Assembly (NCBI GenBank): GCA_030035585.1
Contig: CM057476.1
Coordinates: forward strand, 23,420,501-23,484,500
Origin: Dugong dugon
Taxonomy: Eukaryota; Chordata; Mammalia; Sirenia; Dugongidae
Reading direction: 5' to 3'
Length of the DNA stretch: 64,000 nucleotides
Both the position numbers and the translations under genes were made by a program. Below, piece by piece: positions 1-20,800 of the stretch. The notes under the pieces are model-generated. The model was not told where the DNA came from. It made no database searches and saw only the letters and a program-made list of their open reading frames with translations. Position 1 is the stretch's first letter; the number at the start of each line of letters is the position of its first letter.

Positions 1-1130
1 AAACTCAGTATTCCATAAGCAATAAACTCACTTTCCCCCTCCCTCACACCCCTGGTAACCACTAATAAACTTTGGTCTCTCTGCATTTGCCTGTTCTTGT
101 CTTTTTACGTAAATGAGGTCATACAATATTTGTCCTTTTGTGATTGACTTCTTTCACTCAGCGTAGTGTCTTCAAGCTCCACCCATATTGTAGCATGTAT
201 CAAGACTTCATTTCTCTTTCTGAGTAGTATTCCATTGTATGTATGTAGCACACTTTGTTTATTCATTCATCTGTCAGTGGGCATTTAGGTTGTTTCCACT
301 TTTTGGCTATTGTGAATAGTGCTGCGGTAAACATTGGTGTACAAGTCTCTGAGTATCTGCTTTCAAGTCTTTGGGTATATACCTAGGAGTGGAATTTCTG
401 GGTTATATGGTAGTTCTGCTTTTAATTTTTTGAGGAACTGCCACACGGTTTTCCATAGTGGCTGTGTCATTTTGCATTCCCACCGGCAATGGATAAGTGT
501 TCCAATTTCCCCACAACCTGACCAATATTTGTTGTTTTATTATCATATTTTATTTTAGCCATCCTAGTGGGAGTGAAATGGTATCTCATTTTAGTATTGA
601 TTTGCATCTCTCTGATGGCTAATGACATTGAGCATTTTTTTTTTGTGTCTGGTGGTGATTTGAATGTCCTCTTTGGTGAAATGTCTATTCAAGTCCTTTG
701 CCTATTTTAGGATTGGGTGATTAGTCATTTTGTGGTCGTCAAAGTTTTATATATATTTTGGCTATTAGATTCTTATCAGATATATGGTTTCTGAAGATAT
801 TGTCTCGATTGGTAGCTTGTCTTTTCACTCTTTTGGTAGTCTTTTGATGATCAAAAGTTTTAAAATTTTATGATGTCCCATTTATCTATTTTGCCTTTTG
901 CCATTTGTGCTTTTGTTATTATATTAGCTAATCCATTGTTAAAAGCTAGGCCTGACAGCATTGCCTCTGCATTTTCTTCTAAGAATGTCGTGGTTTCAAT
1001 GTTCACATTTAAATCCTTAATCCATTTTGCATTTGTTTTTGTGTGTGATGGGAGGCGTGGATTCTGTTTTATTTTTCTGCATTTGGAAACCCAATTTTCC
1101 CAGCATCAATAATGGAAGAGACTCTTCTTT
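1..1130 (-). mobile_element. L1 3' fragment (ORF2 C-terminus and 3' UTR)
   Basis: Antisense translation shows the degenerate C-terminal L1 ORF2 pattern (a [14 protein letters not shown]-like segment and a CTPMF-like end), broken by stops and frameshifts. Shared with 51950-53200 on the other arm, so inserted before the arm duplication. Confidence 0.8.
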
Positions 1131-1194
1131 CAATGGACCATTCTTGAAAATAGAGGCCTCGACAGCTGTTTTCTCCTAAGTCTCTGAAGTTGCA

Positions 1195-1400
1195 TGTAGG
1201 GGAAAGAGTGTGAGATTTGGAGCTAAAGAGGTGAGCCTTGCTGACCCTAAACACTCTGCCAGTGTGACCCTGGGCAGGTCGCCTCATCTCCCTGACCTTG
1301 GCTTTCCCCTCTATTAAATAAGGATGATGACTCATGGGGTTACTTTGAGAGTGAAATGAGTGGCTAGGGGTGAAGGAGCTGACTATGTGTAAGACATCAA
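1195..1400 (+). repeat. MIR SINE
   Basis: Contains the MIR core pattern: a GTGACCCTGGGCAGGTC-like stretch, then a pyrimidine-rich stretch and TTAAATAAGGATGATGA. Mirror copy at about 51680-51880. Confidence 0.65.
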
Positions 1401-1424
1401 ATAATCCTCTCCACACTTTTTTAA

Positions 1425-2075
1425 AAATGATTTTATTTATTTTGTTGTTGTTGTTGGGAATATACACAGCAAAATATACCCAATCCAACAGTTTCTACGT
1501 GTACCATTTAGTGACACTGATTACATTCTTAGAGTTGTGCAACCATTCTCACTCTCCTTTTCTGAGTTGTTCCTCCCCCATTAACATAAATTCACTGCCC
1601 TCTAAGGATCTTATCTAATCTTTCGAGTTGCTGGTATAGATTTGATCCCATATAGATAGTTCTGAAAAGAGTATAATGCTCAAGGCAGAACTGTTTTACT
1701 ATAAGCTAAATTATTGTTTGGTTTTAAGAAGACTTCATGGGATATTTTTGGATTAAGGTTTAAAGGTTATCTCAGGATAGTAGTTTCAGGGGTTCATTCA
1801 ACCCTCGTGGCTCTAGGATGTCGCGCATCCATGAGAATTTGAAATTCTGTTCTGCATTTTCCCCTTTTGATCAGGATTCTTGTATGGAATCTTTGATCAA
1901 AATATTCGGTAATGGTGGCCAGGCACCATCCAGTTCTTCTGGTCTCATGGCAAAGGAGGCAGTTGTTCATGGAGGCAATTAGCCACACATTCCATGTCCT
2001 CCTCCTATTCTTACATCTCCATAATGCCCCCACTTTCGAGCAACCGTCCCTTTCCTTGGCAGCACCCAGTGATCC
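1425..2075 (-). mobile_element. L1 3' UTR segment, left arm only
   Basis: About 650 bp with antisense L1 tail character, interposed between sequences that are directly joined in the right arm (near 51630). It begins beside a T run, as an antisense L1 with a poly-A tail would. Either a left-arm insertion or a right-arm deletion; no clean target duplication is seen. Confidence 0.6.
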
Positions 2076-2602
2076 GGACACCAGCTACCTTGCTGTTTCT
2101 GCCTGTGCCCAAGCACCACCTACCCCACCTCAGCCCCCGCCAGTATCCTTGCCCTGTGAGGCCTTTACCCACCCTCCTGTCCTTTGCCGAGCAGAGCCCA
2201 CTTGGCTGGGCGCTCAAGTAGGGACAGTGCCACCCTCCAGCCCATCTCCCACATCAATATACTTTGGAGAGCATGCCAAGAGAAGATTCCTTATTGATTT
2301 CTCTTTTTTCTTAAAAAAATAAGAAGTATTCCTTTGGTATAAAAAAAAAATTTTTCAATACGACATTGAATACATAAAAATTGTCTCTCAATATGAAACA
2401 TTCCTCCAATACATTCACCAAACAGGAACTTGTTACCCAAGGCAAAGTCCTTTCTGGTGGAAAGAAAGGACAGGGAACATCTAAGGACAATGCCACAGGG
2501 TGGGTCCCACTGAGCTAGCAGTGTGCATGGGAATGGGGGTTGGGTCAGGGCAATGGGGTGGTCGGAAATAATCCTCAGATAAGAACAGCTGTACCATTTG
2601 AA

Positions 2603-2805
2603 GGAGCCCGAGTAGCACAAGCAGTTTGCAGGGGGCTGCTAACCCAAACGTTGGCAGTTTGAACCTACCCAGCAGCTTCACGGAAGAAAGGCTTAGTGAT
2701 TTGGTTCCGTAAAGATTACAACCAAGAAAATCCTAGGGAGCAATTCTTCTCTGTAACACATGGGGTCACCATGAGTCAGAGGCCAGTTTGACAGCAGCTA
2801 ACAAC
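2603..2805 (+). mobile_element. AfroSINE
   Basis: tRNA-like head, then the body with GAAGAAAGGCTTAGTGAT, and the RTE-like 3' end (GGTCACCATGAGTCAGA, then CTAACAAC). Mirror copy at 50911-51112. Confidence 0.85.
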
Positions 2806-2891
2806 ATTCCCCTAACTCAGCGACTTTCAACACTTGCTTCACACTAGAATAACCTGGAGAACAACAAACAAAAAAACACTAAAGCTTCGGC

Positions 2892-3778
2892 AAGCAGCCC
2901 TCTTGGTGCAAAGTTTGAGCGCTTCAACGCTAAACAAAATGTTGGTGGTTCGAACTGGCAGTATGCTTCCATAAAGCTTACAGCCCATGTGGAGACTATG
3001 GTCTCAGGGAATACCTAGCTCAGGTGGAATAACATAGTTTATAAAGAAATGGTCTGCATTCTATTTTGGTGAGTAGCATCTGGGGTCTTAAAAGCTTGTG
3101 AGCAGCCATCTAAGATACTCCACTGGTCTCACCCCTTCGGGAGCAAGGAAGAATGAAGAAAACTAAAGATACAAGGGAAAGATTAGTCCAAAGGACTAAT
3201 GGACCACATCCACCACGGCCTCCACCACACGAGTCCAGTACAACTAGACGGTGCCCAGCTACCACTACGGACTGCTCTGACAGGGATCATAATAGAAGGT
3301 CCCAGACAGAGCTGGAGAGAAACGTACAACAAAATTCTAACTCAAAAAAGACCAGACTTACTGGCCTGACAAAGAATGGAGAAACCCTGAGAGTATGGCC
3401 CCCGGACACCCTTTTAGGTTCACCCTTCAGCCACAGATTAGACAGCCCCATAAAACAAAATGAGACTAAAGGGGCACACCAGCCCAGGGGTAAGGACTAG
3501 AAGACAGGAGGGGACAAAATGCTGATAATAGGGAACCCAAAGTCGAGAAGGGGTGTGTTGACATGTCATGGGGTTTATAACCAATGTCATAAAACAATAT
3601 GTGTACTAACTGTTTAATGAGAAACGTGTTTGTTCTGTAAAACTTCAGCTAAAGTACAATTAAAAAAAAAAGATTACAATCAAGAAAACCCTATGCAGCG
3701 GTTCTACTCTGTCACTTGGGCTTGCTGTGAAATTGAATCGACTCGATGGCACCTAACAACAACAACAAAGCCTGGACT
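2892..3778 (+). mobile_element. AfroSINE split by an L1 3' end
   Basis: SINE head at 2892-2990 and tail at 3672-3778 (ending CCTAACAACAACAACAAAG) flank an L1 3' UTR insertion. Mirror at about 49873-50810, which keeps more of the SINE. Confidence 0.8.
2990..3671 (+). mobile_element. L1 3' UTR end nested in AfroSINE
   Basis: Afrotherian L1 tail: a CACACCAGCCCAGGGG block, a TTGACATGTCATGGGG block and an AAAGTACAATT end with an A run at 3661-3671. Near repeats of the SINE sequence at both edges suggest a target duplication (AAAGCTTACAGCC and AAAGATTACAATC). Confidence 0.75.
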
Positions 3779-3989
3779 CCACACAGGACCATTAAATCAG
3801 AACCCCTGTGCCTTTTGAGAGGAAATTATTACCTCTCTCAATTCCAGGGCCCCAGCCCCACACACTGTATCTATTGCAGAGGGCCAGCCAAGCAGGGATG
3901 GACGGCCTCTGTCAGGGGAGAACTGCCCCAGTGGAAACCACGGGAGATGAGGGGGAGGAGGCAGGAGGAGCGACAAGAAAGAAAGATTT

Positions 3990-5464
3990 TTTTTTTTTTA
4001 ATATATGACTGTCCTACCTCCTCCTCTACTGAGCCCCCCCACCCCCGGCTCCTTAAAATCATCTCTGGTCCAAGCACATGACCCAGGATGCCAGGAGTGG
4101 GTCAATGCCAGCAGAAGAAAATGAGAAAAGAACAGTTTTTTCACACAAAGTCTCAAAAATTCAGGATGCTGTGTTCAGGGGATGCTAATATGCTAGGGTA
4201 GTTCTAGAAAGAGCACTGTGGACAGGGACCAAGGCACAGAACTGGGGCTGGCGTGGAAGTAGGGGTGGGCAGTGAGACAGTCGAGGGGCCGGGGGTGGCT
4301 TGGGAAGGAAGGCTGCCCAGATGTGAGCAGCACAGATGTTTCCTCAAGGTGCTGAGATGATGGGAGACCAGCAGGCCCAGGGCTCTGGAGTCACCAGTTC
4401 TGGCTTTCCGATGAGACTGGCTGTCTTGTAGCTGTCCACAGAGCAGAGAGATGGGAAGGGTAGCAGGCCAAGATCTGGGACAAAGGTGAGTGTGACCCAT
4501 GATCTCTGAGCTGAGTCTCCACATCCTAGTCTTGCCATGGAGACAGGTAACTCCTGGCCTGGGCACAGCCTCCGGGCTTGCTTGCTGCCCGCCTGCCTGC
4601 CAGCTAGTGGGACTGGATGAAGTGCTCACAGAACGAGAGAGAAAGGGGCAAAGTGAATGCAAATCATCATAACCTAATTGGCTGAACTGCTAGGACCGCT
4701 GCCACCTGCTCGGGGTTTGAGAAGACCAAATTGGTCCTCTCAGCAGCTGCCCCAGATTCCAGACTGGAGGCTGTTTCTAGACTTGCCTGGCCCTCAGCCC
4801 AAAGGAAAGGATTGGGTTCCTTGCTTCAGAGCTCAGAACCAGGTGAGGGAGTTTGGGAGCTGGGGCAGCAGGGGCCCATAGACTCCTGTTCTGAGTGAAG
4901 GTGCGTGGGGTAATGCCCCCCTCTCCAGAGAGGAGCAGTGGCTCCCTCCCCGCCACCCCCCACAGCTCCAGCTTCCTAAGTTCTCCTCAGCCAGGTCCTC
5001 AAGTCCTCCCTGGTGTTTGGGACACCCAAGAAGGAGCCTCCCGCTGTGCAGGAGTATCTTCAGGGGGAGGGTGCTGGGTAAGGACAGTTCCAGGGCTCCT
5101 TAACTGCTCCCTTGCCCTTGTCTGCTCAAAGTCTAAAGCCACGCCAGAGATCAGGTGTGGGCAGAAGACCAGTCACACTCCACTCGCCAGCCTGACACCT
5201 TGAAGCTTGGCTGCCATTTTCCACAGGAAGAGGCACCACTTTTAACTGGTGCGGTATCGAGGCCATGCCTGAGGAAGTTTTGACCCTGTTCGGCTACATC
5301 CCAGCCCACCCCTCAGTGGAGTGGACTGGCAGGGAGCCCCACAGTTTCTGCCAGCAGCCCCACTTGCTCTTAGTGATGACCATGTGCCACACTGTGAGAG
5401 CCCCCCACCTCTAGATCCCGCTCCCAAGATCCCTTGATCCACAGCACACTTCAAGATCCTGTGC
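3990..5464 (-). other. LIF copy A 3' flank, probable 3' UTR
   Basis: Mirror of 48284-49640, with the extra segment at about 5289-5400 retained. The ATTAAA hexamer of copy B is present here too, followed by an uninterrupted A run (T run on the plus strand at 3988-4001). Confidence 0.5.
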
Positions 5465-7043
5465 CTAGAAGGACTGGGCCAGATCGGCAATGACCTGCTT
5501 GTATTTAAACAGGAGCTGACAGCCCAGCCTCTTCTTCTGGAAGACGTACTGCTCCGAGGTGTTGAGGCCGTTGATCACGTCGGTCAGTCTCACGTTGTAG
5601 GTGTCGCACAGGCGGCAGAGCACATTGCTGAGGATCCCCCGAACGGTGTCCGCCGTGGAGTTAAGCTTGCTGTGGAGGTTCTGATCTTTGGGGTTGAGGG
5701 TCTTCTGGCACTGCATGACGTCGTCCAGGGAGAGGTGAAAGTAGGCCATGACACGGTACAGCTCCACCAGCTTGTCCTTCTCAGTACTGTTTGCGTGGAA
5801 GGGTGGGAAGCTCATCAAGTCTTTGTGGCACAGCCTGTCCACATACTTGGTGAACGGCTCGCCCTGGGCCGTGTACTGAGGAGCAGAGGGCAGAGGGGAG
5901 GTGAGCAAGGAGGCAGGGATCCTTGTTTCAGCACTGCCACTCACTCTTATAGCAAGCTATTGTGCCTCAGTTTCCCTGCTATGGCATGGAGACCCAACTC
6001 TGTGTCCTGTAGGCATCTCAAGATGGTCATGAGAGGCAGATGGAAATCTGGGTGTGAACACACTTGGTAAAGAATCAAGGCCTCTACCATGCAAGGATTG
6101 TTATTTTTACTTGTTATTAGTATTAGGAATCCCTGGGTGTGGAAACGGTTAACGCTTTCGGCTGCTAATTGAAAGGCTGGAGATTTGAGTCCACCCAGAG
6201 GTGCCTCAGAAGAAAGCTTTGGTGATCTACTTGCAAGAAATCAGCCATTGCAAAACCTATGGAGTACAGTTCAACTCTGACACACATGGGGTTGCCATGA
6301 GTCAGAATGGACTGGTGGCAACTAGTTTTGATTTATTTTTAATTATGGTGAACTTATGGAGAAAGAAAGAAAACTGGGGTGCCTCACCTTCAGAGGTGTG
6401 CCACACACACTTGCCCTTTCACCCACCTGGGCATCTCTCTGCATCCAGACACCCTCCGCCCACCGTCTCGCTCAACGTCATCTCTCTGAATACCTCCCAG
6501 GCTTTTCCCTCTTTTGTGGATCTCCATCTGTCTCCAGCTCTACTGTGATGGAGGAATCCCCAAACCTGAAGTGCCAGGCCTTTTACATTCTCACCAGAGC
6601 TCTACCCTGACCTAACCCTTGGGAAGGCTATTGCTATCTGGGCTTGGGGCAAGATGTGGGGAAAGCTAGATGGGGTTTAACCAGCCTCTCTATTTTCCTT
6701 CCAGCTCCAAAAATTCCTCTCCCTGGCCAGCACCCCCAGCTCAGGTCATTGCAGACTCTACTGATATCTGTAGGAATTCTGCCCACTTCTCCCACCTCAG
6801 GCCACACCCTCCTTCCTGGGTCCCCAGAGGTGGGAGGGGTAAACTTACATAGGCAACAAAGAGGGCGTTGGCACTACTGTTGAGCTGTTCCAGTTGGTTC
6901 TTGACCTGGGTCATGATGTTGCTGGAACATGGGTGGTCCATGATGCAGGTGGTCTTGTCAGGAGTGGGGCTCCCTGCCCCATGTTCCCAGTGCAGAACAA
7001 GCAGCAGTGACAGGATTGCTGGGAGTCGGCCAAAAGGTGCCAT
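5465..7043 (-). CDS. LIF: LIF-like cytokine, copy A (two coding exons)
   Basis: Leukemia inhibitory factor paralogue, a secreted four-helix IL-6-family cytokine that signals through LIFR and gp130. Coding exons are 7043-6849 (65 codons) and 5875-5465 (136 codons plus stop), giving 201 residues against about 202 in mammalian LIF. Donor TAT|GTAAGT and acceptor CTCCTCAG|TAC fit LIF exon 2/3 junctions. Residues 1-24 form a signal peptide (core AILSLLLVL, likely cut before SPTP). The six LIF disulfide cysteines appear at 33, 39, 81, 152, 155 and 184; an extra one sits at 121. The FxxK LIFR-contact motif is present (F177, K180). N-glycosylation sequons lie at N55, N94, N137 and N170. The usual first coding exon is absent. 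An ATG with a strong Kozak context (A at -3, G at +4) lies just upstream of the old exon-2 acceptor and supplies the start. No frameshift or stop is seen. Expression cannot be judged from sequence; a silent copy is possible. Confidence 0.85.
5876..6848 (-). other. Intron between LIF copy A coding exons
   Basis: GT-AG intron of 973 bp. It contains a short MIR-like stretch (about 5935-6060) and an AfroSINE (6127-6330) shared with copy B, so that SINE predates the arm duplication. Hand comparison with 46900-47872 finds about 11 differences, none in the 310 bp next to exon 3. This is fewer per base than in the exons. Confidence 0.8.
6127..6330 (+). mobile_element. AfroSINE in LIF copy A intron
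   Basis: Starts AATCCCTGGGTGTGG and ends in the RTE-like tail (GGTTGCCATGAGTCAGAATGG). Shared with copy B (47419-47622), so older than the arm duplication. Confidence 0.85.
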
Positions 7044-7117
7044 GATCAGGACGGTGGGGATGGCAGCTCGAGGCTCCGGTCACACTAGATGCACTGCGTC
7101 TCCACCTACAGCTCTAT

Positions 7118-7190
7118 CACCACTGTCTCTGTCTCCCTCTCCTCTACCTTGCTATCCCTGCTTCTCTCCACCTGCTTATATCTCCCAGCA
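7118..7190 (-). promoter_or_regulatory. Candidate TATA promoter block, LIF copy A
   Basis: A TATAAG hexamer (minus strand, 7180-7175) lies 137 bp upstream of the ATG. The block from GTGCTGGGAGATATAAGCAG onward is identical to copy B for about 65 bp, while the sequence on both sides differs by roughly 7%. It would replace the ordinary LIF promoter, which lay upstream of the missing exon 1. Inferred from position and conservation only. Confidence 0.4.
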
Positions 7191-7589
7191 CGACACAAGC
7201 TGTTCCCACCTACCGATTGGAACCTGGCTCTACGGTGACACCCCACCTCCCAATCATCTAAACCTTTCCCTCAATAAGGCAAAAGCCCCTTGGCCTCTTG
7301 GCCCTCTGACTTGAGGGTACCACTCCCCATCTTAATGGAAGAGGAGATGCCTATCTCTCTGTCTCCTGAGATGGCTCAGATTCCTAAGCATTTCTTCATG
7401 TGCACCTGCCTAGAGCAAACCAAATCTTTCAATCTGGGCTCTCAGTGGGACCACGGAGGGTCCTTCGCTGACCCTCTTCATCCTCCCAAACATGCCACCT
7501 GTTTTTGGCTCCCCAGGCCAATTGCCCCCCAGTTTGCCATCTCCTTCATCTATATCCTTCGCCAAATATGGCCAACCTCCCAAGCTCTG

Positions 7590-7804
7590 TTTTTGTTGTT
7601 GTTACCAGTCGCCATTGAGTCAGTTTTGAATCATGGTGATCCATGTGTGTCAGAGCAGTATTGTGCTCATTGGGTTTGCAGTGACTGATTTTTCAGAAGT
7701 AGATCACCACGCCTTTCTTCCAAGGACCATCTGGGTAGGCTCAAACCTCCAACCTTTTGGTTAGCAGCTGAGCACATTAACCGTTTGCACCACCCAAGAT
7801 CTCC
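7590..7804 (-). mobile_element. AfroSINE
   Basis: Antisense copy starting from a T-rich GTTGTTGTTACCAGTCGCC end and closing with CACCACCCAAGATCTCC. Mirror at 45950-46170. Confidence 0.85.
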
Positions 7805-7984
7805 CCTTCTGCCTAGTATTTGAATTTAGGGCAGAGGTGACACAGAACGTTCTCTTTCTTCTACCACAAACCCTGAGCTCCTTGGGCACAAAGCCTGGCA
7901 CATGGAAGATCTTCCCAGGCTTGACCATGTGAGTGGACAGATGATGGAAAGAGCATGAAAATGAGTGAACATGAGCAGCATCTC

Positions 7985-8140
7985 TCACCAGCTGAGTGAT
8001 GTCAGGATGGTCCCTTAGCCTCCCAGGGCCTCAGTTTCCTCATCTGTAAACGGAGACAGTCACCTGACCCCACCTTCACAGAGTGGCTGGGAGAAGCTTA
8101 GATGGGTGAGAAAACACCTTGTAAACTGTAAAGTGCAGGA
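7985..8140 (+). repeat. MIR SINE
   Basis: Classical MIR core, CCTCAGTTTCCTCATCTGTA, preceded by a weakly conserved head. Mirror at about 45620-45770. Confidence 0.7.
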
Positions 8141-8559
8141 CCCGCACAGACCGTGGGCTTGTGTATCTGGCGGGGTACTTGATGGTTTTGGGAGTCCCCC
8201 TGTCCTATTGAGTCCTCCTGAGAGCCCGGATGGAGAAGGCCCAGCTGGGGACCGGGGCTGCCCTGACACCTCCACCACATGGACAGGAGGCCTCTCTGTC
8301 AGGTCTCCTACCAGCCTGGAATCGGGACACCTGAGGCAGAGGAGGAATCTGCTGGGAGGGTGGTCCTTCCTGCTCCCCCTTCCCCACCAGCCTGGCCTGT
8401 GGCCTTGGATCCGAGCTGTCAGAATCCTGCAGGCACAGTGAGAGAGTGGTCCTTCCCCTGCAAGAGCGTGCAGGTGTCTGGGATTCACTTGGCTTTGTCC
8501 ATCTCCCCCGGGGTGGGTGGACTGGGTCCTGCTCTCAGAACAGAAGCTCCCTGCTCATG

Positions 8560-8710
8560 GGATCCTTCCAGCAACCTTGTGAAGGAGATAGACCAGTGGT
8601 CATCATTATTACTCTCGCAATTACACCGATAAGAGAGCTGAGCTCACCCGAGAGGGACAGCTACTCATGGTCACAGGACAGGATAGAGCAGAGCCAGGGC
8701 AAAGACCTGG
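8560..8710 (-). repeat. MIR-like SINE
   Basis: Antisense MIR pattern: AGCAACCTTGTGAAGGAGAT, then GAGAGCTGAGCTCACC and GTCACAGGACAGGA. Mirror at about 45060-45200. Confidence 0.5.
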
Positions 8711-9449
8711 GCACCCGGGCAGTGCCCCTTCCTCCTGCTGAGTGAGTGTTCCTGCCTCCTGTTTGGAGGGTGACCCAGTCACTGATTCTCAGTCCTTTGT
8801 TCTCTCTGGCCCAAGGGAGGGCAGACAACAGAACTGCTGCCCTCTCCTCAGGACCAGAGAATTTCCCAGACAGTGTGAGGGCAAGAACCCGGGGCCAGAG
8901 TACTGGGCGGCCCTTCTGCCCTGCAGGCGGGCATTTGGGCTCTGTCATTATCCTCCCTTTCTGGCCTAGGCATTTGTTTTGTTTTCTCTAGTTTCCTAGT
9001 AAAGGGTTTTTTTGCAAAGCTTCAACCCTGTCTCAGATGAGTGGAGGGGACACCAAGGACAACGGGGTGTGGCTGGCCTTGACGTGGTAGGCGAATAAGT
9101 ATGGCAGGTATGGCTGGTGCCCTGGATGCTGGTTGGTTGGGGGTGCAGGTGGGGCACCAATGAGCAGTTTCTATTGGCCGTTGCAGTTTCTATTGCCAGC
9201 TGTGAGAAATCATTCAGAAATTTCAAACTAATTCCACAGGTAAGATGCTGGCTGTGGGTTTAGCCAGCCAGGCAGGGAGGGGCCAAGACACTGGAACTCA
9301 CCTTGGGGAAAAGGAGTCAGAAGCAGCTGGGGATCTGGCTCCAGACCCTACCCAGTGGCCTCTCCCTTCCCAAGCAGCTGCCTGTGCTGCTGTGGTGATC
9401 TGCATTTGGGGAAAGTTCTAGAACGGTGAGGAGTGATAGATGGAGGGGC

Positions 9450-9542
9450 TACAGGGCAGTGTTTTCAGACTTCAGTGTGCACACGGATCCCTGGGACCTT
9501 ACTAAAAGGCTGACTCCCATTCAGCAGGTCTGTGGGTGGGGC
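9450..9542 (+). mobile_element. MER5A-like hAT fragment
   Basis: Matches the MER5A pattern TTTTCAGACTTCAGTGTGCA, then CATTCAGCAGGTCTGTGGGT, cut by a SINE at 9543. Mirror at 44194-44285. Confidence 0.6.
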
Positions 9543-9724
9543 CGAGTCTCTGGGTGGTACAAATGGTTGAAGTGCTTGGTTGCTAAAGGAAATGTTGGAG
9601 GTTTGAGTCCTCTCAGAGGTACTTTGAAAAAAAAGCCTGGTGATCTAGTTCTGAAAAATCAGCCATTGACACACACCGGGTCGCCATGAGTCAGAGCTGA
9701 CTCGATGGAAACTGGTTCTATGCC
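9543..9724 (+). mobile_element. AfroSINE with internal deletion
   Basis: Head GAGTCTCTGGGTGGTAC, tail GGTCGCCATGAGTCAGAGC. Relative to its mirror at 43986-44193 it lacks about 31 bp in the body, a left-arm deletion after duplication. Confidence 0.85.
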
Positions 9725-10773
9725 GAGGGGGAATTCATTTATTACACTAAATAACCACATTTTCAGAAGTAAATATTAATGTCAAAGTGGAAACAAGATG
9801 TATTTGTTTCCTTTTAAACAGCATGTAAGGCTTACAACAGAATGCACACGATAAAAATACTGATAAAATAGATCAAGGGAATCAGAATCAGAGAAAACAT
9901 AAGCAGACCGATGAAATCAGCATCACAGAAATAAAATAAATAAATGCTTCAGCTCACACGGGGCCACATAGTTACCATGGCCAAGCTTCAAATCTGGCTC
10001 CGAGACTCCTGGCAGCAAAAGGAAAAAGGGCAATAGGATGTGTTATGTGCTTCTTATGATTTAAAAGGAGAAGGCTTTCCCAAACCTCAGGGGAAGCAGA
10101 GCCCATCCTGAGCCTGGGTCTAAAGGAAATTTCTTTTGAGATCCCTGGGTGGGAGAGTGTGAGGGGTGAGAGATGGTTGACTTCCCGCTCAAGGTCGCAT
10201 TTTCCATTGGGTATTACAGCCTGAACTTGCTGTGGTCTTTGCAAAAGTTGGTGTCCAATGTCAAATGCAGCCCAATGAAGGAGATTCTACAAGAGGCCAG
10301 GTGACCCAGCACTAACTGGGGCTTCAGCCCAATCCAAGGGGAGTCTGTTGAGTCCTAGGGTGGGACACGGATTGAATATGCCTTGGAAGCTTCTCACTGC
10401 CCCCAGAGTTATTTTCTTTGCTCTTTTTTTAAAAAAAAATTGTGTTAAAAGTATATATAACTAAACATTTTCCATTTCTACATTTTTTACCTGCACAATT
10501 CAGTGACATTAATTACCATATTGTGCAACCATCACCAGTATCCATTTGCAAATTTTTCCATCACCCTTAAAAACTCAGTGCCCCCTCAACAATGACTCCC
10601 CCTTTCCTTCTCCCTCCCACTCCTAGTAACCACTAATAAGTCTGGTGGTTATTTGCCAAGACTAGATATTTCATATAAGTGCAATCATACAATATTTGTC
10701 TTTTTGACTTTTTTTTTCACTTAGCATAATGTTTTCAAGGTTCATATGTGTTGCAACATTTATCAGAACTCCT

Positions 10774-11996
10774 TATTGTTAGGTGCCATCAAGTCAGTTC
10801 TGACTCATACCGACCCTATGTACAGCAAAACAAAACACTGCCCAGTCCTGCGCCATCCTAACAATCATTGTTACCCTTGAGTCCATTGTTGCAGCCACTG
10901 TGTCAATCCATCTCCTTGAGGGTCTTCCTCTTTTTCACTGACCCACTACTTTACCAAGCATGATCTCCTTCTCCGGGGACTGATCCCTCCTGATAACATG
11001 TGCAAAGTATGTGAGATAAAGTCTTACAATCCTTGCTTCCAAGGAGAATTCTGGCTGTACTTCTTCCAAGAGAGATTTGTTCATTCTTTTGGCAGTCCAT
11101 GGTGTATTCAGTATTCATCTTCAACACCATAATTCAGAGACATCGATTCTTCTTCTGTCTTCCTTATTCATTCTCCAGCTTTCACACGCACATGAGGTGA
11201 TTGAAAACATTGTGACTTGGGTCCAAAAAAAAAACCCATTGCTGTTGAGGGGATTCCGACTCATAGTGACCCTATAGGACACAGCAGAACTGCCCCATAT
11301 GGTTTCCAAGGAGCTCCTGGTAGCTTTGAACTGCTGACCTTTTGGATAGCAACCATAGCTCTTAACCACTACATCACCAGGATTTCCTGGCTTGGGTCAG
11401 GCACACCTTATTCTTCAAGGTGACATCTTTGCTTTTGAACACTTTAAAGAGATCTTTTGCAGCAGATTTGCCCAATGCAACCCATCGTTTGATTTCTTCA
11501 CTACTGCTGCCATGGGTGTTGGTTGCGGATTCAAGTACAGTGAAATCCTTGACAATTTCAATCCTTTCTCAGTTTATCATGATGTTGCCTATTGGTCCAG
11601 TTGTGAGGATTTTTGTTTTCTTTACGTTGAGGTGTAATCCATACTGAAAGCTGTAGCCTTTGATCCTCATCGGTAAGTACTTCAAGTCCCCTTCACTTTC
11701 AGAAAGTAAGGTAGTGTCATCTGAATAACGAAGTAGTTAATGAGGCTTCCTCCAATCCTGATGCCCCGTTCTATCAGACAATGTTCCACTGCTATTCAAA
11801 GGGTTTTCACTGGCTAATTCTTTTCAGAAGTAGACCGCCAGGTCCTTCTTCCTAGTCTGTCTTAGTCTGGAAGCTCAGCTGAAACCTGTCCACCATGGGT
11901 GACTCTGCTGGTGTTTGAATACCGGTGGCATAGCTTCCAGCATCACAGCAACACGCAAGCCCCCACAGTATGACCAACTGACAGACACGTGGGGAT
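10774..11996 (-). mobile_element. Internally deleted RTE retrotransposon
   Basis: 3' end (10774) starts with the GTTAGGTGCCATCAAGTCAG tail shared with AfroSINEs. It runs through the RT C-terminal region, then near 11770 jumps to 5' UTR-type sequence (CAGACAATGTTCCACTG) ending near 11996. The endonuclease and most of RT are missing. It carries a nested SINE at 11224-11390. Mirror at 41701-42931. Confidence 0.8.
11224..11390 (-). mobile_element. Short AfroSINE nested in RTE
   Basis: Starts with an A run and CCCATTGCTGTTGAGG, ends TACATCACCAGGATTTCC. CTTGGGTC repeats on both sides (about 11216 and 11391), the target duplication. This is a third nesting level: SINE in RTE in L1. Confidence 0.85.
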
Positions 11997-12394
11997 ATCA
12001 GAACTTAACTTCTCTTTATGGCTGAATAATATTCCAGTGTGTGTCTATGCCACATGTTGTTTATCCATTCATGTGCCGCTGGATGTTTAAGTTGTTCCTA
12101 ACTTTAGGCTACTGTGAATAGTGTGGCAATGAATGTTGGTGTACGAGTTACCCCCAGGGTTTTACAACCTTTTTACTGATGTCTAATATACTTACAAAAT
12201 GTACATCAAATAACGTCTACCCTCTTAGATGATTCTGTGAGGGCTGGAGCAAGCAGGGAACACATGAAGGATGGCGTTGGGGGAGGAGACTTGGGGAGTG
12301 AGTGGGCTTTGAGTCTTTGTGCCTGCCTCATTCCCTGGCCACTGGTCTGAAGTCCAAATAGAAAGCGTTTACGGGCCACTGGCTTCAGCGTCAG

Positions 12395-12605
12395 CAGAGC
12401 CCTGGTTGTGCAGTGGTTAAGTACTTGGCTGCTAACTAAAATGTCAGTGATTCAAACCCACCAGCCTCTCCGTGGGAGAAAGATGTGGCAGTCTGCTTCC
12501 GTAAAGATTACTGCCTTGGAAACTCTATGGGGCAGGTCTACTCTGTCCTAAAAAGGGTTGCTATGAGTTGGAATCAACTCGACGGCAACAAGTTTTGGTT
12601 TTTGG
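12395..12605 (+). mobile_element. AfroSINE
   Basis: Near-consensus head GAGCCCTGGTTGTGCAGTGG and tail ATCAACTCGACGGCAACAAG. Mirror at 41093-41302. Confidence 0.88.
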
Positions 12606-13112
12606 CTTTGGTGTCGAGGACAGTTTCCACGCTGCCACCCGCCCTACTAGAGGACCCCACCTGCCCAGCCTGCCTCCGTCCCTTTGACTTGGGGTAGCAG
12701 CACCCTGCTCCGGCCTCACTTAAGAACCAAATATTTCAAATATGAGGACGTGGTCAAGGCCTGCCCACTCCATCTGATCCTCAGTGATGGGTGACAGGGG
12801 TGAAGAGAAGGTCTAGCTCCTGCCCAATGAATCAAAGCCGGAGAAGGCTCTACCTGTCAGCAGGCTTTCTCCTTGGCCCTGCTCACCAAGTCCCCACCGT
12901 CCACCCGCACAGGTGGCAGGCAGCCCTCTCAGCTTCCTAGAAGGACCATTCTCCACGGAGGAGGGTGCTGCATGTGGGGCCCCCGTGGTAGCTGTGGGTG
13001 TGGGACTCTTGTCCTTCTCAGCTTGCCTTTCTTGTCCTGTCTTGAGAAGGGGCATCACATACATCGCCCACTGTAGTGAGTTGAATGGGGGCCGCCCAGA
13101 AGGTATGTCAAG

Positions 13113-13684
13113 AATACACTAGGCTTAGGGGACATCTATGTCAATTGGCATAACATAGTGCATAAAAACAATGTTCTACATCCAACCTAGGTGAGAAACC
13201 CTGAGAGTATGGCCCCCAGACACCCTTTTAACTCAGTACTGAAGTCACTCTTGAGGTTCACCCTTCAGCCAAAGATTAGACAGGCAAATAAAACAAAATG
13301 AGACTAAATGGGCACACCAGCCCAGGGGCAACGATGAGAAAGTAGGAGGAGCCAGGAAAGTCAGTAGTGGGAACCCAAGTTCGAGAAGGGGAGAATGTTG
13401 ACACGTCATGGGATTGGCAACCGATGTCACAAAACAATAACCCATAACCCGTTGCAACCCAGTCAATTGCGACTCATGGCGACCCTATAGGAACTGCCCT
13501 ATAGGGTTTCCAAGGAGCAACTGGTGGATTCAAACTGCCAACCTTTTGGTTAGCAGCCAAGCTCTTAACCGCTACACCACCAGGGCTTCCACAAAACCAT
13601 ATACGTATTAATTGTTTAGTGAGAAACTAATTTGCTCTGTCAACCTTCATCTAAAGTACAATAAAAAACAAAAAAACAAAAAGA
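13113..13684 (+). mobile_element. L1 3' UTR nested in MLT1, with nested SINE
   Basis: L1 tail (CACACCAGCCCAGGGGCAAC, AAAGTACAATAAAAA) holding a short antisense AfroSINE at 13441-13598. Present in both arms. Confidence 0.75.
13441..13598 (-). mobile_element. Short AfroSINE
   Basis: Begins CATAACCCGTTGCAACCCAG and ends CACCACCAGGGCTTCC; mirror split at 39729-39787 and 40127-40233. Confidence 0.85.
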
Positions 13685-14429
13685 GTCTTTGCAGATGTAG
13701 TTAATGATCTCAGGATGAGATCTCCCTAGATTATCCATTGAGCCCTAACTGCAATGGCAATTGTCCTTATAAGAGATGCCCAGAGGAGAGGCGTGGGGAG
13801 AAGAGGAGAAGGCCGTGTGAAGACAGGCAGAGATTGGAATGATGTGGCCACAGCCCAGGAAGCCTGGAGCCACCGGAAGCTGGAAGAGGCAAGGGATGGA
13901 TTCTCCCCCGGAGTCTTCAGAGGGAGTGTGTCCTTACTCACCGCTTGATTTCAGACATCTAGCCTCTGGAAGTGTGAGAAGATAAATCTCTGTGGTTTTA
14001 AGCCAACCAGTTTACGGTCATTTGTTAGGTGGTCCTAGAACACTAGTATCTGTCATCCGTATCAGGTGTGTCCAAATCAAAGTCTACATGGCCTGAAGCC
14101 GTCCCCTCCTCTCTCCTCCCTGCCCCAGGCTGTCATTACTTCTTTCCTGGACTAGTGCAACAGCCTCCAGACTGTCTCCCTGCCTTCAGCTCATCCCCTT
14201 CCAATCGGGCCATACCTCCTCCTCATCCCAGCAGCTTTCAGAAGTCCTGGTCAAATTGCTGAAAGGGTAAGACCACCCGCTTTCTGTGGACCACAGTCTA
14301 GTTCCCAAATTCAAGCCTGACTTGATGGAGCCCCACTCAGAGGGGGCCCACGCTTGGTTTAATGCTCTGTGGTTGCCATCTTGAAATTCTGAATTGTTTT
14401 TGGAAAAGGGGCCTGCATTTTCGTTTTGC

Positions 14430-14648
14430 ACCAGTTGAAACCAGTTGCCGTGCAGTCAACTCCAACTCAGGGCGACTCCATGTATGCCAGCACAGAAGAA
14501 CAGAACTGTGCTCCATAGGATTTTCAATGGCTGGCTTCTCAGAAGTAGATCTGCAGGTCTTTCTTCTGAGGTGCCTCTGCACGACTTGAACCTCCAGCCT
14601 TTCAGTTAGCAGCTGAGTGCATTAACCATTTGCACCATTCAAGGACTC
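14430..14648 (-). mobile_element. AfroSINE with target duplication
   Basis: Flanked by TTTTGCACC at 14423-14431 and again at about 14650. Mirror at 38670-38885. Confidence 0.88.
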
Positions 14649-14654
14649 ATTTTG

Positions 14655-14873
14655 CACCAAAACAAACAAACAAACCCATTGCTGTTGAGCTGAATTGATT
14701 CTGACTCATGCTGACCGCATGCGTGACAGAATAGAACTGCTCCATTGGGTTTTCTTGGCATCTTTAGAGAAGCAGATCATCAGGCCTTTCTTCTGCAGCT
14801 CTGCTGGGTGCATTTCAGCCTCCAACCTTTAGACTTGTAGGCAAGCATTAACCATTTGTGCCACACAGGGGCC
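14655..14873 (-). mobile_element. AfroSINE near inner arm edge
   Basis: A-rich start (AAACAAACAAACAAACCC), closing GCCACACAGGGGCC. The arm homology continues about 90 bp past it to 14963. Mirror at 38447-38655. Confidence 0.85.
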
Positions 14874-14997
14874 TTCGTTACGTTCAAGGTCCTGCATATC
14901 ATGTAGCCAGCCCTGCCCAACTCAACCTTCTCAGCTCGCCTACTCCCACACCCCTTCCTTCAGTACAGTATTTATTCCCTTCTGTATCCAGAAAAAG

Positions 14998-15213
14998 GTC
15001 CCTGGATGGTGCAAATGGTTTGCACTCCTCTACTAACCTAAATGTTGGTGGCTTGAACCCACCCCGAAGCATAGTGGAAGAAAGGTTTGTAACTTGCTTC
15101 CATAAAGATTACAGCCAAGTAAACCCTATGGAACAGTTCTGCTCTATGACACATGGGGTTGCCATGAGTCAGAACCAACTCACCGGCAACGGGTTTGATT
15201 TTTGGTGTGGTAT
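14998..15213 (+). mobile_element. AfroSINE
   Basis: Head GTCCCTGGATGGTGCAAATG, tail GGTTGCCATGAGTCAGAACC. First repeat inside the spacer. Confidence 0.85.
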
Positions 15214-15215
15214 CT

Positions 15216-15394
15216 GAGTGGTGCAGATATTTAACATACTGAGCTGCTAACTGAAAGGGTGGAGGTACAGAAGAAAGGCCTGGCAATCTACTTCTGAAAA
15301 ATCAGCCACGGAAAACCCTCTGGAGCACAGTTCTACTACTGACATACGCGAGGTGACTATGAGGTAGAGTTGACTTGACGGCAGTTGACTGATG
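15216..15394 (+). mobile_element. AfroSINE, partial
   Basis: Head GTATCTGAGTGGTGCAG, body GAAGAAAGGCCTGGCAATCT, decayed tail. Tandem with the preceding SINE. Confidence 0.8.
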
Positions 15395-15419
15395 GGTGTC
15401 CAGAGTAACCACTCAGAGG

Positions 15420-15860
15420 CTGAGTGTTTTATTTTTTCTGGTTTCATGCGTGTTTATCTGTTTCTTTATTAAACTTGATCATACTGTGCCGATTGTTTTT
15501 TTAAATTTCATTTTCAGACTAAAACAGAAGTTTCCAAACCCAGAAAGTATAAAAAGGTCTACAGTGACAGATTTCACTGCCAGTCTTATCCCCTTCCTGC
15601 CTAGTTCCCATCTCTCTCCCAAATGGGCAACCGTATTTCTTAGTTTCTTTTGTAGCTTATCAGATTTCCTTAAGCAAACACAAATACAAATAAAGATAAT
15701 TTTTCCATTTTTTCCACACAAATGGCATACTATCTACACTGTTCCGCACCTTGATTTTTTCACGTCTTGGACATCTTTTCACATCAGTGCACAGAGACCT
15801 TCCTCATGCCTTTTTACAACTTCATAGTCCAGTTCTGGGATTTGTCTTATTAATGAATAC
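15420..15860 (-). mobile_element. Old L1 fragment
   Basis: T-rich antisense L1 3' UTR-like sequence with no open frame; the same element appears to resume at about 16650-16900. The family assignment is approximate. Confidence 0.45.
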
Positions 15861-16440
15861 TTGGGCTAAAAGGAACGGAATTTTTAATTCTTGTGGCATC
15901 CAGGTTTTCTGGATCCATGGAGGTTGAAAATGACCCACCCACGTTATTGCCAAACTAAACTAATCTTTGAACCTTAAACATTGAGTCAAGACTGGTTTCC
16001 TGAAAGTCATCTTTCAGTCAAACAACAGTTTAGCTTAATTAATAAAGAACGTTTACCTCAAGCATTGTGCTCTTTTATAGAATTATCTATGTACAGTCAG
16101 TTTTGACAAACAGTAATTACAAAGGTCAGACCAGAAGCTATGTTTTAAGGTGAGTCGGTAATTATTTGAATTGTTCTTCAAGAAAATGTTGCATGTCCAC
16201 GACTAATTATGTAAACACTATTCTGGCCCTGTTTTCACAGCAGCATACAATTTCTAGCAGTAAACTCGAGCATAAGAAGCTGTGAAAGATTTCTCTTATT
16301 TGGAACATTTGTGACTCTCTAGTCAGAAATGTTGCCCCGATTTGCAAATCGTATATTAAATAAACTTCAACCAATTTTTACTATTGGCTTAATATTCTTT
16401 TTGCTTTCGCAGCTGTTACAAATCTTTGCACTAGTGAATG
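15861..16440. other. Unclassified AT-rich insertion in L1
   Basis: About 15950-16140 resembles an L1 3' UTR piece also seen near 53880-54060 (TTTAGCTTAATTAATAAAGA and relatives). The rest, to about 16440, has an LTR-like feel (AATAAA near 16355) but I cannot name it. Confidence 0.35.
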
Positions 16441-16481
16441 ACCTTGTATACAGGGTCATTTCACACATTTGCTAATACATC

Positions 16482-16645
16482 GGGCCCTGGTGGTGCAGTT
16501 GTTAAGAGCTTGGCTGCTAACCAAAAGGTCGATATTTCGAATCCACCAGCTGTTCCTTGAAAACACTTTGGGGCGGTTCTGCTCTGTCCTATAAGGTTGC
16601 TATGACATGGAATCGACTTGATGGCAATGGTTTGTTTGTTTGTCT
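16482..16645 (+). mobile_element. Short AfroSINE with target duplication
   Basis: Near-consensus head (GGGCCCTGGTGGTGCAG), ending in GTTTGTTTGTTTG. CTAATACATC occurs on both sides (16472 and about 16646), giving a clean target duplication. A young copy that exists only in the spacer. Confidence 0.9.
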
Positions 16646-16885
16646 AATACATCTGTAGGCCAAATTTCCAGAAGTAGAAATACTGGGGTAGAGAGCCTAT
16701 GTATTCAAAATTTTTGTGGACGCTTACAAATTCTCCTTCATAAGGGCTGTATTACAGTTTAGACTCCCTCTAGCAATATGAGAGTATCTGGTTCTCCATA
16801 GCCTCACCAACATATTATATATCATCAAACTTTTAGATTTTTGTCGATATGATAATTAGAAATTATATCTCAGTATAGTCGTGTT
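16646..16885 (-). mobile_element. Old L1 fragment
   Basis: Antisense L1 pattern around TCTCCATAGCCTCACCAACA, typical of old L1 3' UTR sequence, with no open frame. Confidence 0.5.
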
Positions 16886-17185
16886 TTTGCTTTTTTTTTT
16901 TTTTAAACAAAAAAGAGAGTTTATTGACCGGGTAATGGAGACGTCCAGTGGTAGATGAACTTCAGGCACAACTTGATTCAGGTGTTCACACGGTGTCATC
17001 AGGACTCAAACTGTCAACACTTCCAAGCTGCTTTCCTCTCTGCTGTTCTTGGTTCACAGGGTGGCCTTCAACAGAGCTTCTCTGCACCGGTAGTTCCCAT
17101 AGTAGTATTGGAATTGGTTCTCATCACACACACACCTCTAAACTAATCGCAGTGGCAGAAGACAGCATATGATCGGCAATGCCTG
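16886..17185 (-). other. Retroposed transcript 3' end, source unknown
   Basis: On the minus strand the sequence ends CCGGTCAATAAACTCTC and then, after a short gap, a run of A (plus-strand T run at 16896-16910). AATAAA followed by an A tail is the mark of a retroposed transcript end. The roughly 260 bp body shows no clear frame and no family I recognise; it could be an LTR or LINE tail. Confidence 0.45.
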
Positions 17186-17234
17186 AACAGGCGTGCACGC
17201 TGGGGGTCTAGGTGTGCAAGGTCACGCAAACCAC

Positions 17235-17716
17235 ATGGCCTATATTATTTTCCTATGACTGCTTTAATAAATTACCACTAATAAGGTGATTTAAAACAAC
17301 ACAAATCTATTCCCTTACAGTTCTGGGGGCCAGAGTCCAAAATCATTTTTGGACTGTCGGCAGGGCTGCTTCTTTCTGGAGGCTCTAGGGGAGAATCTGT
17401 TTCCTGGATTTTTCCAACATCTAGAGGCTGCCTGTATTCCTTGGCTTGTGGCCCCTTCCTCCATCTTCAAATCTCATCACTCCAGTCTCTGCTTCCGTCT
17501 TCACAACACCTTTTCCTCTCACTCTGACTCCTCCTGCTCCCTCTTATAAAGAACCTTGGGATTACATTGGCCTAGCTGCATAATCCAGATGATCTCCCCA
17601 TCACAAAATTCTTAACCTTATCCCATCTGCAAAGCCCCTTTTGCTACATATAGGGACGTTCACAGGTTTCAGATTAGGACGTGGACATCTTTAGGGGCCA
17701 TTTTCAGCCTATTACA
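17235..17716 (-). mobile_element. MLT1-type LTR
   Basis: Antisense MaLR LTR pattern: a CTATGACTGCTTTAATAAAT-like end, ACAGTTCTGGGGGCCAGAGT, TTCCTTGGCTTGTGGCC, CTCTTATAAAGAACCTTGGG, and GGGGCCATTTTCAGCCTATT at the far end. Confidence 0.75.
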
Positions 17717-17779
17717 TGGCCTAAGAGTGTAGAGGTGTTGTTTCCCAAATGGAAGCAAAAGATGCAGTTTATTAGAAAA

Positions 17780-17973
17780 AGAGACAATGAAGTGGCCATC
17801 CAAGGCACAACAATTGGTCTCTACTTCCCTGGAGCCACAGAGGAAGGAGAGTTAGGAATAGGAGGAGGAAATGGAACGTGTGGCTAATTGCTGCCACGAA
17901 AAACTACCTCCTTTGCCATGAGACCAGAAGAACTGGATGGTGCCCAGCTACCATTACAGGCAGGCCCCTGGGG
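17780..17973 (+). mobile_element. L1 3' UTR fragment
   Basis: Matches other L1 tail copies in the window (GGAATAGGAGGAGGAAATGG, then GAACTGGATGGTGCCCAGC; compare about 53650-53760). Confidence 0.55.
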
Positions 17974-20078
17974 CAATGAACAAGATCTATTCCTAACTAT
18001 GTCTTTAAGTCAAATTTGTACGTAAGTCCCAACAGGTACGTATTGTTCTTATTTAGCCTTACTTTAGTGCAAGAAAGGGCTCAAAGCCTTTTCAATGATT
18101 TAAAAGCTGCAAATGCAAAACTAGATAATTGGGAGCTCCTAAAAATCAAACGCTTATGTTCATCAACATATTTCACCAAAAGAGTAAAAAGTCAACCTAT
18201 AGACTGGGAAAATTTTTTTAGCTACAACAAATCTGATCAGCATCTAATCTCTAAAATCGACAAGATATTGCAAAACCTCAACAACAAAAAGACAAATAAC
18301 CCGATTAAAAAATGGGCAAAGGAGATGAACAGACACTTCACCAAAGAAGACATTCAGGCAACTAACAGACACATGAGGAAATGCTCATGATCATTAGCCA
18401 TTAGAGAAATACAAATCGAAACTACAATGAGATACTATCTCACCCCGACAAGGCTAGCATTAATCCAAAAAACACCACATAATAAATACTAGAAAGGTTG
18501 TGGCGAGAGTGGAACACTTATACACTGTTGGTGGGAATGTAAAACGGTACCTCCACTTCGGAAATCGATTTGGCACTTCCTTAAAAAGCTAGAAATAGAT
18601 GTACCATGTGATCCAACAATCCCGCTCCTTGGAATATATCTTAGAGAAATAAGCGGCATCACACGAATAGATACATGCACACCCATGTTCACTGCAGCAC
18701 TGTTCACGATAGCAAAAACATGGAAACAACCTAGGTGCCCATCAACAGATGAATGGGTAAACAAATTACGGTATAGTCGCACAATGGAATACTACGCAGC
18801 TATAAAGAGCAACGATGAATCCATGAAACATAACATGGAGGAAGCTGGAAGGCATTATGCTGAGTGAATTTAGACAGTCACAAAAGAACAAATATTGTAT
18901 AAGACTACTGTCATAAGAACGCAAGAAAAGGTTTAAACACAGAAGAAAACATTCTTTGATGGTTATGAGGGTGGGGAGGGAGGGTGAGGGTTATTCACTA
19001 ACTAGATAGTAGATAAGAATTATCTTAGGTGAAGGGAAGGACAACACACACTCCAGGGGAAGTCAGCACAACTGGACTAAATCAAAAGCTAAGAAGTTTC
19101 CTGAACACAACCAAACACTTTGAGGGACAGAGTGGCAGGGGTGCGGGTCTGGGGACCATGCTTTCAGGGGACATCTAGGTCAACTGGCATAACAAAGCTT
19201 ATTAAGAAAATGTTCTGCATCCTACTTTAGTGAGTGGCGACTGGGGCCTTAAAAGCTAGCAAGCGACTATCTAAGATGCATCAATTGGTCCCAACTAAGG
19301 GGGAGTAAAGGATGATGAAGAACACCAAAGACACAAGGAAAGTATTAGCCCAAGAGACAGAAAGGGCCACATAAACCAGAGACTTCATCGGCCTGAGACC
19401 AGAAGAACTAGACGGTGCCCGGCTACCACCAATGACCGCCCTGACAGGGAACACGACAGAGAGTCCCTAATGGAGCAGAAGAAAGGTGGGGTGCAGAACT
19501 CAAATTCTAGTAAAGAGACCAGATTTTATGGTCTGACTGAGACTGGAGGAACCCCAGAAAGCATGACCCCCGGACTCTCTGTCAGCCCAGAAGTAAAACC
19601 ATTCCTGAGGCCATCTCTTCAGACAAAGATCAGACTAGATTATGGGACATAAAATGATACTTGTGAAGAATGTGCTTCTTAGCTCAAGTAGATTCGTGAG
19701 ACTAAATGGGCAGCTCCTGTCTGGAGGTGAGATGAGAAGGCAGAGAGGGTCAGGAGCTGGTTGAATGGACACAGGAAATCCAGGTTGGAAAGAAAAAGTG
19801 TGCTGTCACAGTACATGAAGAGCAACTAGGGTCACATAACAATGTATGTATAAATTTTTGTATGAGAGACTCACTTGAATTGTAAACTTTCAGTTAAAGT
19901 AGAACAATTTTTTTTAAAAGCTGCAAGTGCAGCAAGTGAAGGTGATTGTGATGAATTTGTTGCGAGTAGAGGTTGGTTCAGTCCTTTCCAAGGGAAGGCA
20001 AATTTACATAACATTAAACAGCAAGTACGAGTTGTCATAAGTCGGACTTCCGTAACCCTGGGGACTGCCTGTACTTAG
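17974..20078 (+). mobile_element. Tigger-like DNA transposon split by L1
   Basis: Outer ends are inverted: ACAGGCAGGCCCCTGGGG at the left and CCCTGGGGACTGCCTGT at the right, beside TA. The body, 18050-18116 joined to 19913-20030, reads as a fragment of a pogo/Tigger (CENP-B-like) DNA-binding region with an ASRGWFSPF segment and an LHNIK segment. An L1 sits in the middle. No catalytic region is present, so this is a non-autonomous or deleted element. Confidence 0.65.
18117..19912 (+). mobile_element. 5'-truncated L1 inserted in the Tigger element
   Basis: About 780 bp of ORF2 C-terminus (a [15 protein letters not shown] segment, a CTPMFTAALFTIAK segment and TMEYYAAIKSN) followed by a roughly 1-kb 3' UTR ending in an A-rich tail near 19912. 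TTTAAAAGCTGCAA plus TGCA is repeated at 18101-18116 and 19913-19930, the target duplication. ORF2 is broken, so the element is dead. It shows that the separate L1 tails elsewhere in the window belong to one L1 lineage. Confidence 0.85.
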
Positions 20079-20259
20079 TCATGAGTGTGTGTGTTTAAGC
20101 GAAATAGGCCCTGGGGTGGGAAGGGAGGGCAGTCAGCCACCCTCCCTGTCATCGTCATCGTTACTGTCGCTCTGAAGGGCAATGTCAGTCACATCCCACT
20201 CAACCCTGCTGCCTGCTCCTGACAGGCATGTCCTCTTCTGCACAGGGCTTGAAGTTCTG

Positions 20260-20605: not shown

Positions 20606-20607
20606 CC

Positions 20608-20800
20608 ATGATTATGTCAAAAACGGTTTGTGCTTAACTACTAACCGAAAGGTTGATGTTTGAATCCACCCAGTGATGCCGTAGAAGAAAGGCCTGGTGG
20701 ATCTACTTCTGTAAGATCACAGCCATTGAAAACCCTGTAGAGTGCACTTCCAGCCTAAAACACATGGGATCGCCGTTAGTAGGACAATGTTAGTCTCTGG
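20608..20800 (+). mobile_element. AfroSINE, decayed
   Basis: Head damaged; body GAAGAAAGGCCTGGTGGATC and tail GGGATCGCCGTTAGTAGG recognisable. Confidence 0.7.

Follow-up and report, generated by a model that had tools for sequence, protein, structure and literature searches.

Gene conversion between inverted repeats as the best-supported explanation for the exon-intron contrast between two LIF copies of the dugong

Introduction

The elephant duplicate of the LIF6 type has a TP53-responsive promoter. On mammalian sex chromosomes, palindromes and ampliconic repeats undergo gene conversion, with near-identical inner parts of the arms and mosaic exchange between copies.

Elephant LIF duplicates including LIF6 (Vazquez et al. 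2018) are described, in the part of PMC7952090 that deals with them, as copies without parental exon 1 that use a non-parental start codon, and the same part credits manatees with 4 of the 13 LIF copies reported in elephants. According to a section of PMC9108310, one TP53 retrogene predates the split of elephant, hyrax and manatee, the expansion having taken place in elephants alone. Judging by title and abstract, the papers found on LIF, elephant and gene conversion apparently do not deal with this subject, and the whole word LIF is absent from the main text of the dugong genome paper (PMC11219930).

In this study we consider a window, meaning the whole stretch of 64,000 nucleotides at C19:23420501-23484500 of the Dugong dugon genome (3.16 Gb), which holds two LIF copies, A and B, whose exons differ from each other more than the introns between them do. 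Like the elephant duplicates, both are without parental exon 1 and have an alternative start, and they differ from these in that a start is possible upstream of exon 2 and a hydrophobic leader is kept; canonical LIF of the dugong (copy F) does have exon 1, for which no match was found within the window at up to 3 mismatches. No p53-like site pair of at least 18/20 was found within 2 kb upstream of A or B or in their bodies, a search in which the shuffled 2-kb flank of A averages 0.2 hits. The repeats that carry the copies resemble sex-chromosome palindromes in their inverted arms, near-identical inner parts and mosaic exchange, and are unlike them in that they carry cytokine copies, three in number, of which two pairs are inverted and one pair is direct. 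Against the 13 elephant and four manatee copies given in that part of PMC7952090, the dugong has 15 loci that match LIF exon 3, one of them canonical LIF, and against the TP53 retrogene expansion of elephants stands what looks like a single TP53-like retrogene fragment.

Results

Structure and coding capacity of copies A and B

The two copies lie on opposite strands of the window, as follows.

5465-7043, minus strand: copy A, whole
6849..7043, minus strand: exon 2 of copy A, 195 bp, with an in-frame ATG inside former intron 1
5876..6848, minus strand: intron 2 of copy A, 973 bp, GT-AG (splice signals)
5465..5875, minus strand: exon 3 of copy A, 411 bp including the stop (AG acceptor, open frame, LIF_OSM domain)
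46705-48283, plus strand: copy B, whole
46705..46899, plus strand: exon 2 of copy B
46900..47872, plus strand: intron 2 of copy B
47873..48283, plus strand: exon 3 of copy B

Each copy thus consists of an exon 2 of 195 bp, a GT-AG intron of 973 bp and an exon 3 of 411 bp, with open frames and intact splice sites, encoding 201 residues. Both match the PF01291 (LIF_OSM) profile far above its cut-off of 23 bits (A 150.2 bits, B 150.4 bits), and the protein of copy A, when compared with solved LIF structures, gave a best E value of 1.2e-67 over residues 27-201, aligning gap-free to a solved LIF. Cysteines 33, 39, 81, 152, 155 and 184 as well as F177 and K180 are kept in both, and a seventh cysteine at position 121 is extra to the six of LIF. 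We take the six cysteines and the FxxK receptor-site motif, with the roles ascribed to them, to be hallmarks of LIF. In the alignment with solved LIF, F177 and K180 fall opposite its positions 156 and 159, residues with a role in LIFR binding.

The in-frame ATG of A and B begins 25 bp before the former start of exon 2. In the aligned translations it is found at the same place, leading in frame into exon 2, in ten copies (A, B, C, D, E, F, G, J, K and M), some of which are broken downstream, and in canonical copy F it sits within intron 1; being shared so widely, by the canonical copy too, it seems to be older than the duplications. The hydrophobic leader of A and B resembles a signal peptide, and judging from sequence each copy could make a predicted secreted LIF-like cytokine from the upstream ATG.

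Differences between the two copies

On exact alignment A and B differ at 16 exon sites, six of them in exon 2 and the other ten in exon 3; the 973-bp intron has 11 differences. Codon by codon the exon differences resolve into 14 nonsynonymous changes at 13 codons and two synonymous ones. This reproduces the hand count of a previous sequence-only reading for the exons (16 coding differences, 14 of them replacements at 13 residues, two silent) and agrees with its figure of about 11 for the intron. As a count, the claim of the same reading that exons diverge faster than the intron stands (16/606 vs 11/973, Fisher p = 0.028), and an exon/intron ratio as high as that observed is attained by just 2 of 292 overlapping mask placements elsewhere on the arms. 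All 11 intron differences are confined to the exon-2 half of the intron. The exon differences are rich in transversions (9/16). Half of the exon-3 differences (5/10) fall within 21 bp at window 5824-5844, right at the border of the identical tract described below. Four of the 13 changed residues (codons 76, 80, 82 and 83) cluster, in the A-B loop.

A 570-bp identical stretch and the exon-intron contrast

The difference-free part of the intron beside exon 3, put at 310 bp in the sequence-only reading, is present and longer, extending over 539 bp of intron and a further 31 bp of exon 3.

5845..6414, minus strand: 570-bp stretch identical in A and B, an inferred conversion tract (539 bp intronic, 31 bp in exon 3; permutation p = 0.00015)

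The permutation value is that of a 570-bp empty run given 27 differences in 1579 bp; in a second comparison, the 32 variable sites in a row at which A=B were matched in 0 of 20000 shuffles. Outside this stretch exons and intron differ at equal rates (exon 16/575, 2.8%, vs intron 11/434, 2.5%; Fisher p = 0.85), so that the faster divergence of the exons is gone there, and the replacement excess cannot be judged by the intron as a clock. The intron, being partly homogenised, is unusable as a neutral clock.

The third close copy, C, gives the same picture. For the intron the pairwise differences are 11/973 between A and B, 66/972 between A and C and 67/972 between B and C (A and B each being about 6.8% from C), and for the exons they are 16/606, 9/606 and 19/606, respectively. 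Shared derived sites, polarised by outgroups, number 22 for A+B and one for A+C in the intron, none and one in exon 2, and two and two in the remaining exon 3, with 12 shared derived A-B sites lying inside the 570-bp tract. On the arms outside the gene body (about 12 kb aligned, n = 10,251) A and B diverge by 7.6%; the 973-bp arm windows of lowest divergence (0.8%) span the half of the intron next to exon 3 together with the first part of that exon, and the A-B exon divergence of 2.6% lies below the 5% quantile of arm placements (3.7%) and close to their minimum (2.3%). Given the identical stretch and arms at 7.6%, it is the intron that is unusually similar and not the exons that are unusually different. 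The exon-intron contrast is therefore due to the identical stretch and not to fast exons, and the exon excess is an intron deficit. We read the extreme ratio as one strong tract that happened to fall mainly in the intron.

Several observations stand against gene conversion as the whole explanation. The tract nearly ends at the exon-3 border, and selection against converted exons could have shaped which sequence was retained; its coincidence with the intron is unusual, as the mask placements indicate; the transversion excess and the five differences within 21 bp are unexplained by simple drift; and misassembly of near-identical arms is possible, the arrangement being that of the assembly.

Repeat arms and mosaic ancestry

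The copies are carried by nested repeats, the arms of which are located in the window as follows.

1..14963: A-side (left) arm of the A-B inverted repeat, reaching the window start and extending beyond it
38354..53046: B-side (right) arm of the A-B inverted repeat, the portion within the window
10939..48345: B-side arm of the larger B-C inverted repeat, its partner being at window coordinates -40846 to -3464

Identity of the A-B inverted repeat is 85-95% by segment, the B-C inverted repeat measures 37.4 kb at 98.06%, and A and C are direct copies at 88-96% by segment. Per 2-kb bin, B and C are 99.7-100% identical at 10.9-36 kb (difference 0-0.3%) and 93-98% identical at 36-48 kb, the LIF end (difference 1.7-7.1%). 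The inner B-C arms (window 10939-36000, with the inverted partner at about -28500 to -3464) are near-identical over some 25 kb. A separate short inverted repeat is found at window 56125-57487 and 58470-59830, its arms 98% identical and about 1 kb apart.

Along the arms, different stretches are most alike between different pairs of copies. A three-way scan together with a four-state HMM, the parameters of which were set by hand, placed A with C at 10281-9570 and 8320-7956, B with C at 7955-7740, A with B at 6652-5845, and A with C again at 5844-5579 and 5037-3140, with unassigned stretches in between; the per-pair runs exceed those of 2000/2000 shuffles. Two of these segments adjoin the 570-bp tract or lie beyond exon 3.

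5579..5844, minus strand: exon 3 segment in which A is closer to C than to B, holding 8/10 of the A/B exon-3 differences (HMM, hand-set parameters)
3140..5037, minus strand: 3' flank with A and C near-identical and B far off (137/150 private changes are B's)

Sharp switches of ancestry usually point to ectopic gene conversion, and both inverted arms and mosaic copy ancestry, which mark a gene-converting repeat, are found here. Identical tracts carry no sign of the direction of conversion.

This patchwork also bears on the proposal of the sequence-only reading that altered exon pieces were imported from a third LIF copy, which would amount to a second conversion event and is compatible with conversion in the intron. 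That A and C have the same state at 13/16 exon sites, that the 266-bp segment uniting them carries 8/10 of the exon-3 differences and that a long tract of the same kind occupies the 3' flank all agree with such an import, as do the ancestry switches along the gene, whereas clearly derived A+C exon sites number only three, the states of B match no single other aligned copy as a block, and genome searches with exon 2 and exon 3 of B found nothing nearer than A and C. Exchange with a third copy is right as a general idea, no donor block for B was found among the aligned copies or in the genome searches, and we regard the import as possible though somewhat doubtful.

Other LIF copies in the genome

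In a whole-genome search with the gene body, copy C was found at C19:23379717-23381300, 95% identical and 46 kb away, and among the 40 of 6914 first-look candidates that were scored the older LIF copies or pieces, at 71-81%, all lie on the same contig, the remaining matches listed being short (148-222 bp) and confined to a single part of the intron that is presumably a SINE. A search with exon 3 of B gave 15 matching loci, itself and canonical LIF included, all on C19 (15/15 candidates scored). Canonical LIF, copy F, lies at C19:22445901-22447484 with an exact exon 1, and with the exon 2/3 structure and LIF_OSM domain of A and B; another LIF_OSM locus 21 kb away from it is presumably OSM.

Among 16 aligned copies and fragments, a full frame free of stops and partial codons is found in A, B, D and F, the last base of F being clipped by the alignment edge. 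Copy C is open apart from one stop at codon 121, a codon that is cysteine in A and B and in none of the other listed copies, and the other 11/16 (beyond A, B, C, D and F) have stops, frameshifts or missing parts. Copy D (L012, C19:33521035-33522603) is an open LIF frame 10 Mb away with an omega of 0.26, significantly below 1 (p = 0.005), and may on that account be a working gene; for F omega is likewise 0.26 (p = 0.03).

The P53 family search returned 11 matches. Nine of these fall at three loci, three separate ones at each, presumably TP53, TP63 and TP73; the other two overlap at one further place, which also has a stop and looks like an intronless TP53-like retrogene fragment. Set beside the retrogene history given in PMC9108310, a single fragment fits a hyrax or sirenian and makes an elephant genome improbable.

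Selection on the A/B pair

Codon models were run with our own code, not PAML, with branch omegas taken from a restarted optimiser and branch-model p-values derived from log-likelihoods; all p-values are nominal and per test, and the tree is the exon tree, which conversion can distort. The tree-based codon models leave out the partial copies N and Pq throughout, and only the pairwise test includes the first nine codons, which are former intron.

Pairwise maximum-likelihood dN/dS between A and B is 1.44, 1.56 and 1.65 at kappa 2, 3 and 4 (p = 0.62, 0.54 and 0.48 against 1). With 14 copies in the tree, omega of the crown branches (A, B and AC) is 1.70, no different from 1 (2dlnL 0.56, p = 0.46) and marginally above the background of 0.447 (2dlnL 4.04, p = 0.044), a background that contains many broken copies, so that its low omega points to a risk of bias, for instance through CpG sites. 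The stem of A/B/C has an omega of 0.63 (2dlnL 1.63, p = 0.20 against 1).

In the branch-site analyses of 14 copies, for both of which branch lengths were fixed up to scale, the crown gave a 2dlnL of 3.19 (p = 0.07) in the base run, which had numerical warnings, and 1.60 (p = 0.21) with multi-nucleotide changes, a run from a single starting point; allowing such changes improved the fit by about 17 to 20 log units. Neither branch D (2dlnL 0.76) nor branch F (0) was significant in branch-site tests, and a five-taxon run gave 2dlnL values of 3.30 for the crown, 7.21 for the stem and 2.90 for both together. In none of the pairwise, branch and branch-site tests is dN/dS between A and B significantly above 1.

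Diversifying selection after duplication as the driver of the amino-acid changes, suggested in the sequence-only reading, is therefore not borne out. The 14:2 count, the crown omega above background, the branch-site value of 0.07 and the clustering of four of 13 changed residues are in its favour, and the crown omega and the branch-site value also count against a purely conversional account; yet the crown omega does not differ from 1, the branch-site signal fades once multi-nucleotide changes are modelled, simulated neutral changes yield two or fewer synonymous changes out of 16 with a probability of 0.08-0.26 over five mutation models, and the exons lie below the arm-average divergence. We consider it very unlikely, and note that these tests neither demonstrate nor refute positive selection on the pair.

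A and B may also be drifting pseudogenes that are still open by chance, which is compatible with conversion in the intron. The stop in C, the broken or partial state of 11/12 copies besides A, B, C and canonical LIF, and omegas no different from 1 on both crown and stem are consistent with drift, and the probability of no stop in 16 changes is 0.57-0.64, so that open frames say little of the recent period. On the other side, frames, splice sites and LIF cysteines are intact despite many exon changes on the stem (0.143 per site). Random pseudogene decay, which the sequence-only reading had named as an observation that would speak against it, is not what A and B display, both being open, and drift under chance openness is conceivable, with the balance slightly against it.

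An older signal on the stem

On the stem before the A/B/C split the branch-site test with 14 copies gave a 2dlnL of 12.36 (p = 0.0004), falling to 6.67 (p = 0.01) with multi-nucleotide changes. Under the multi-nucleotide model nine codons had a posterior above 0.8 (64, 75, 113, 121, 157, 161, 163, 166 and 173), and each of the eight of these nine that were compared with the outgroups is two or three bases off the commonest outgroup codon. Codons 157-173 presumably lie in the loop just before helix D, adjoining F177 and K180. Neutral divergence of the exons on the stem is about twice that of the intron branch (0.554 changes per codon vs 0.090 per base), so that exon mutability or old exchange may be partly responsible, and the signal is a lead worth following, not proof.

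One scenario suggested by these codons is an adaptive burst in the ancestor of A, B and C, in loops near the receptor face (64, 75, 113, 121 and several of 157-173, with the new cysteine 121), that would have changed receptor use, conversion then shuffling the gene among the palindrome copies while A and B are still diverging; we hold this to be unlikely.

Discussion

In conclusion, the count of differences between A and B holds, and an ordinary conversion reading is the best-supported one and is preferred over selection. A and B belong, with C, to a trio of close LIF copies on one chromosome, carried by inverted and direct repeats that are nested in each other and the arms of which, as their patchwork suggests, exchange sequence through ectopic gene conversion. 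Recent conversion over at least 570 bp, chiefly intronic, would have rendered A and B identical there, most of both exons outside it retaining older divergence, with exon 3 probably sandwiched between this A-B tract on one side and the long A-C tract of the 3' flank on the other. Gene conversion of the repeats, with a mainly intronic A-B tract, very probably explains the contrast and is the best explanation that we have. The replacement bias of 14:2 is what one would expect if A and B had been under little, if any, purifying constraint after their split, and weak positive selection in that period is possible.

The locus is a clean case of repeat gene conversion mimicking positive selection when an intron is taken as the neutral clock. 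With 15 LIF exon-3 loci on one chromosome of the dugong, four of them open, it also bears on claims that tie LIF expansion to the body size of elephants.
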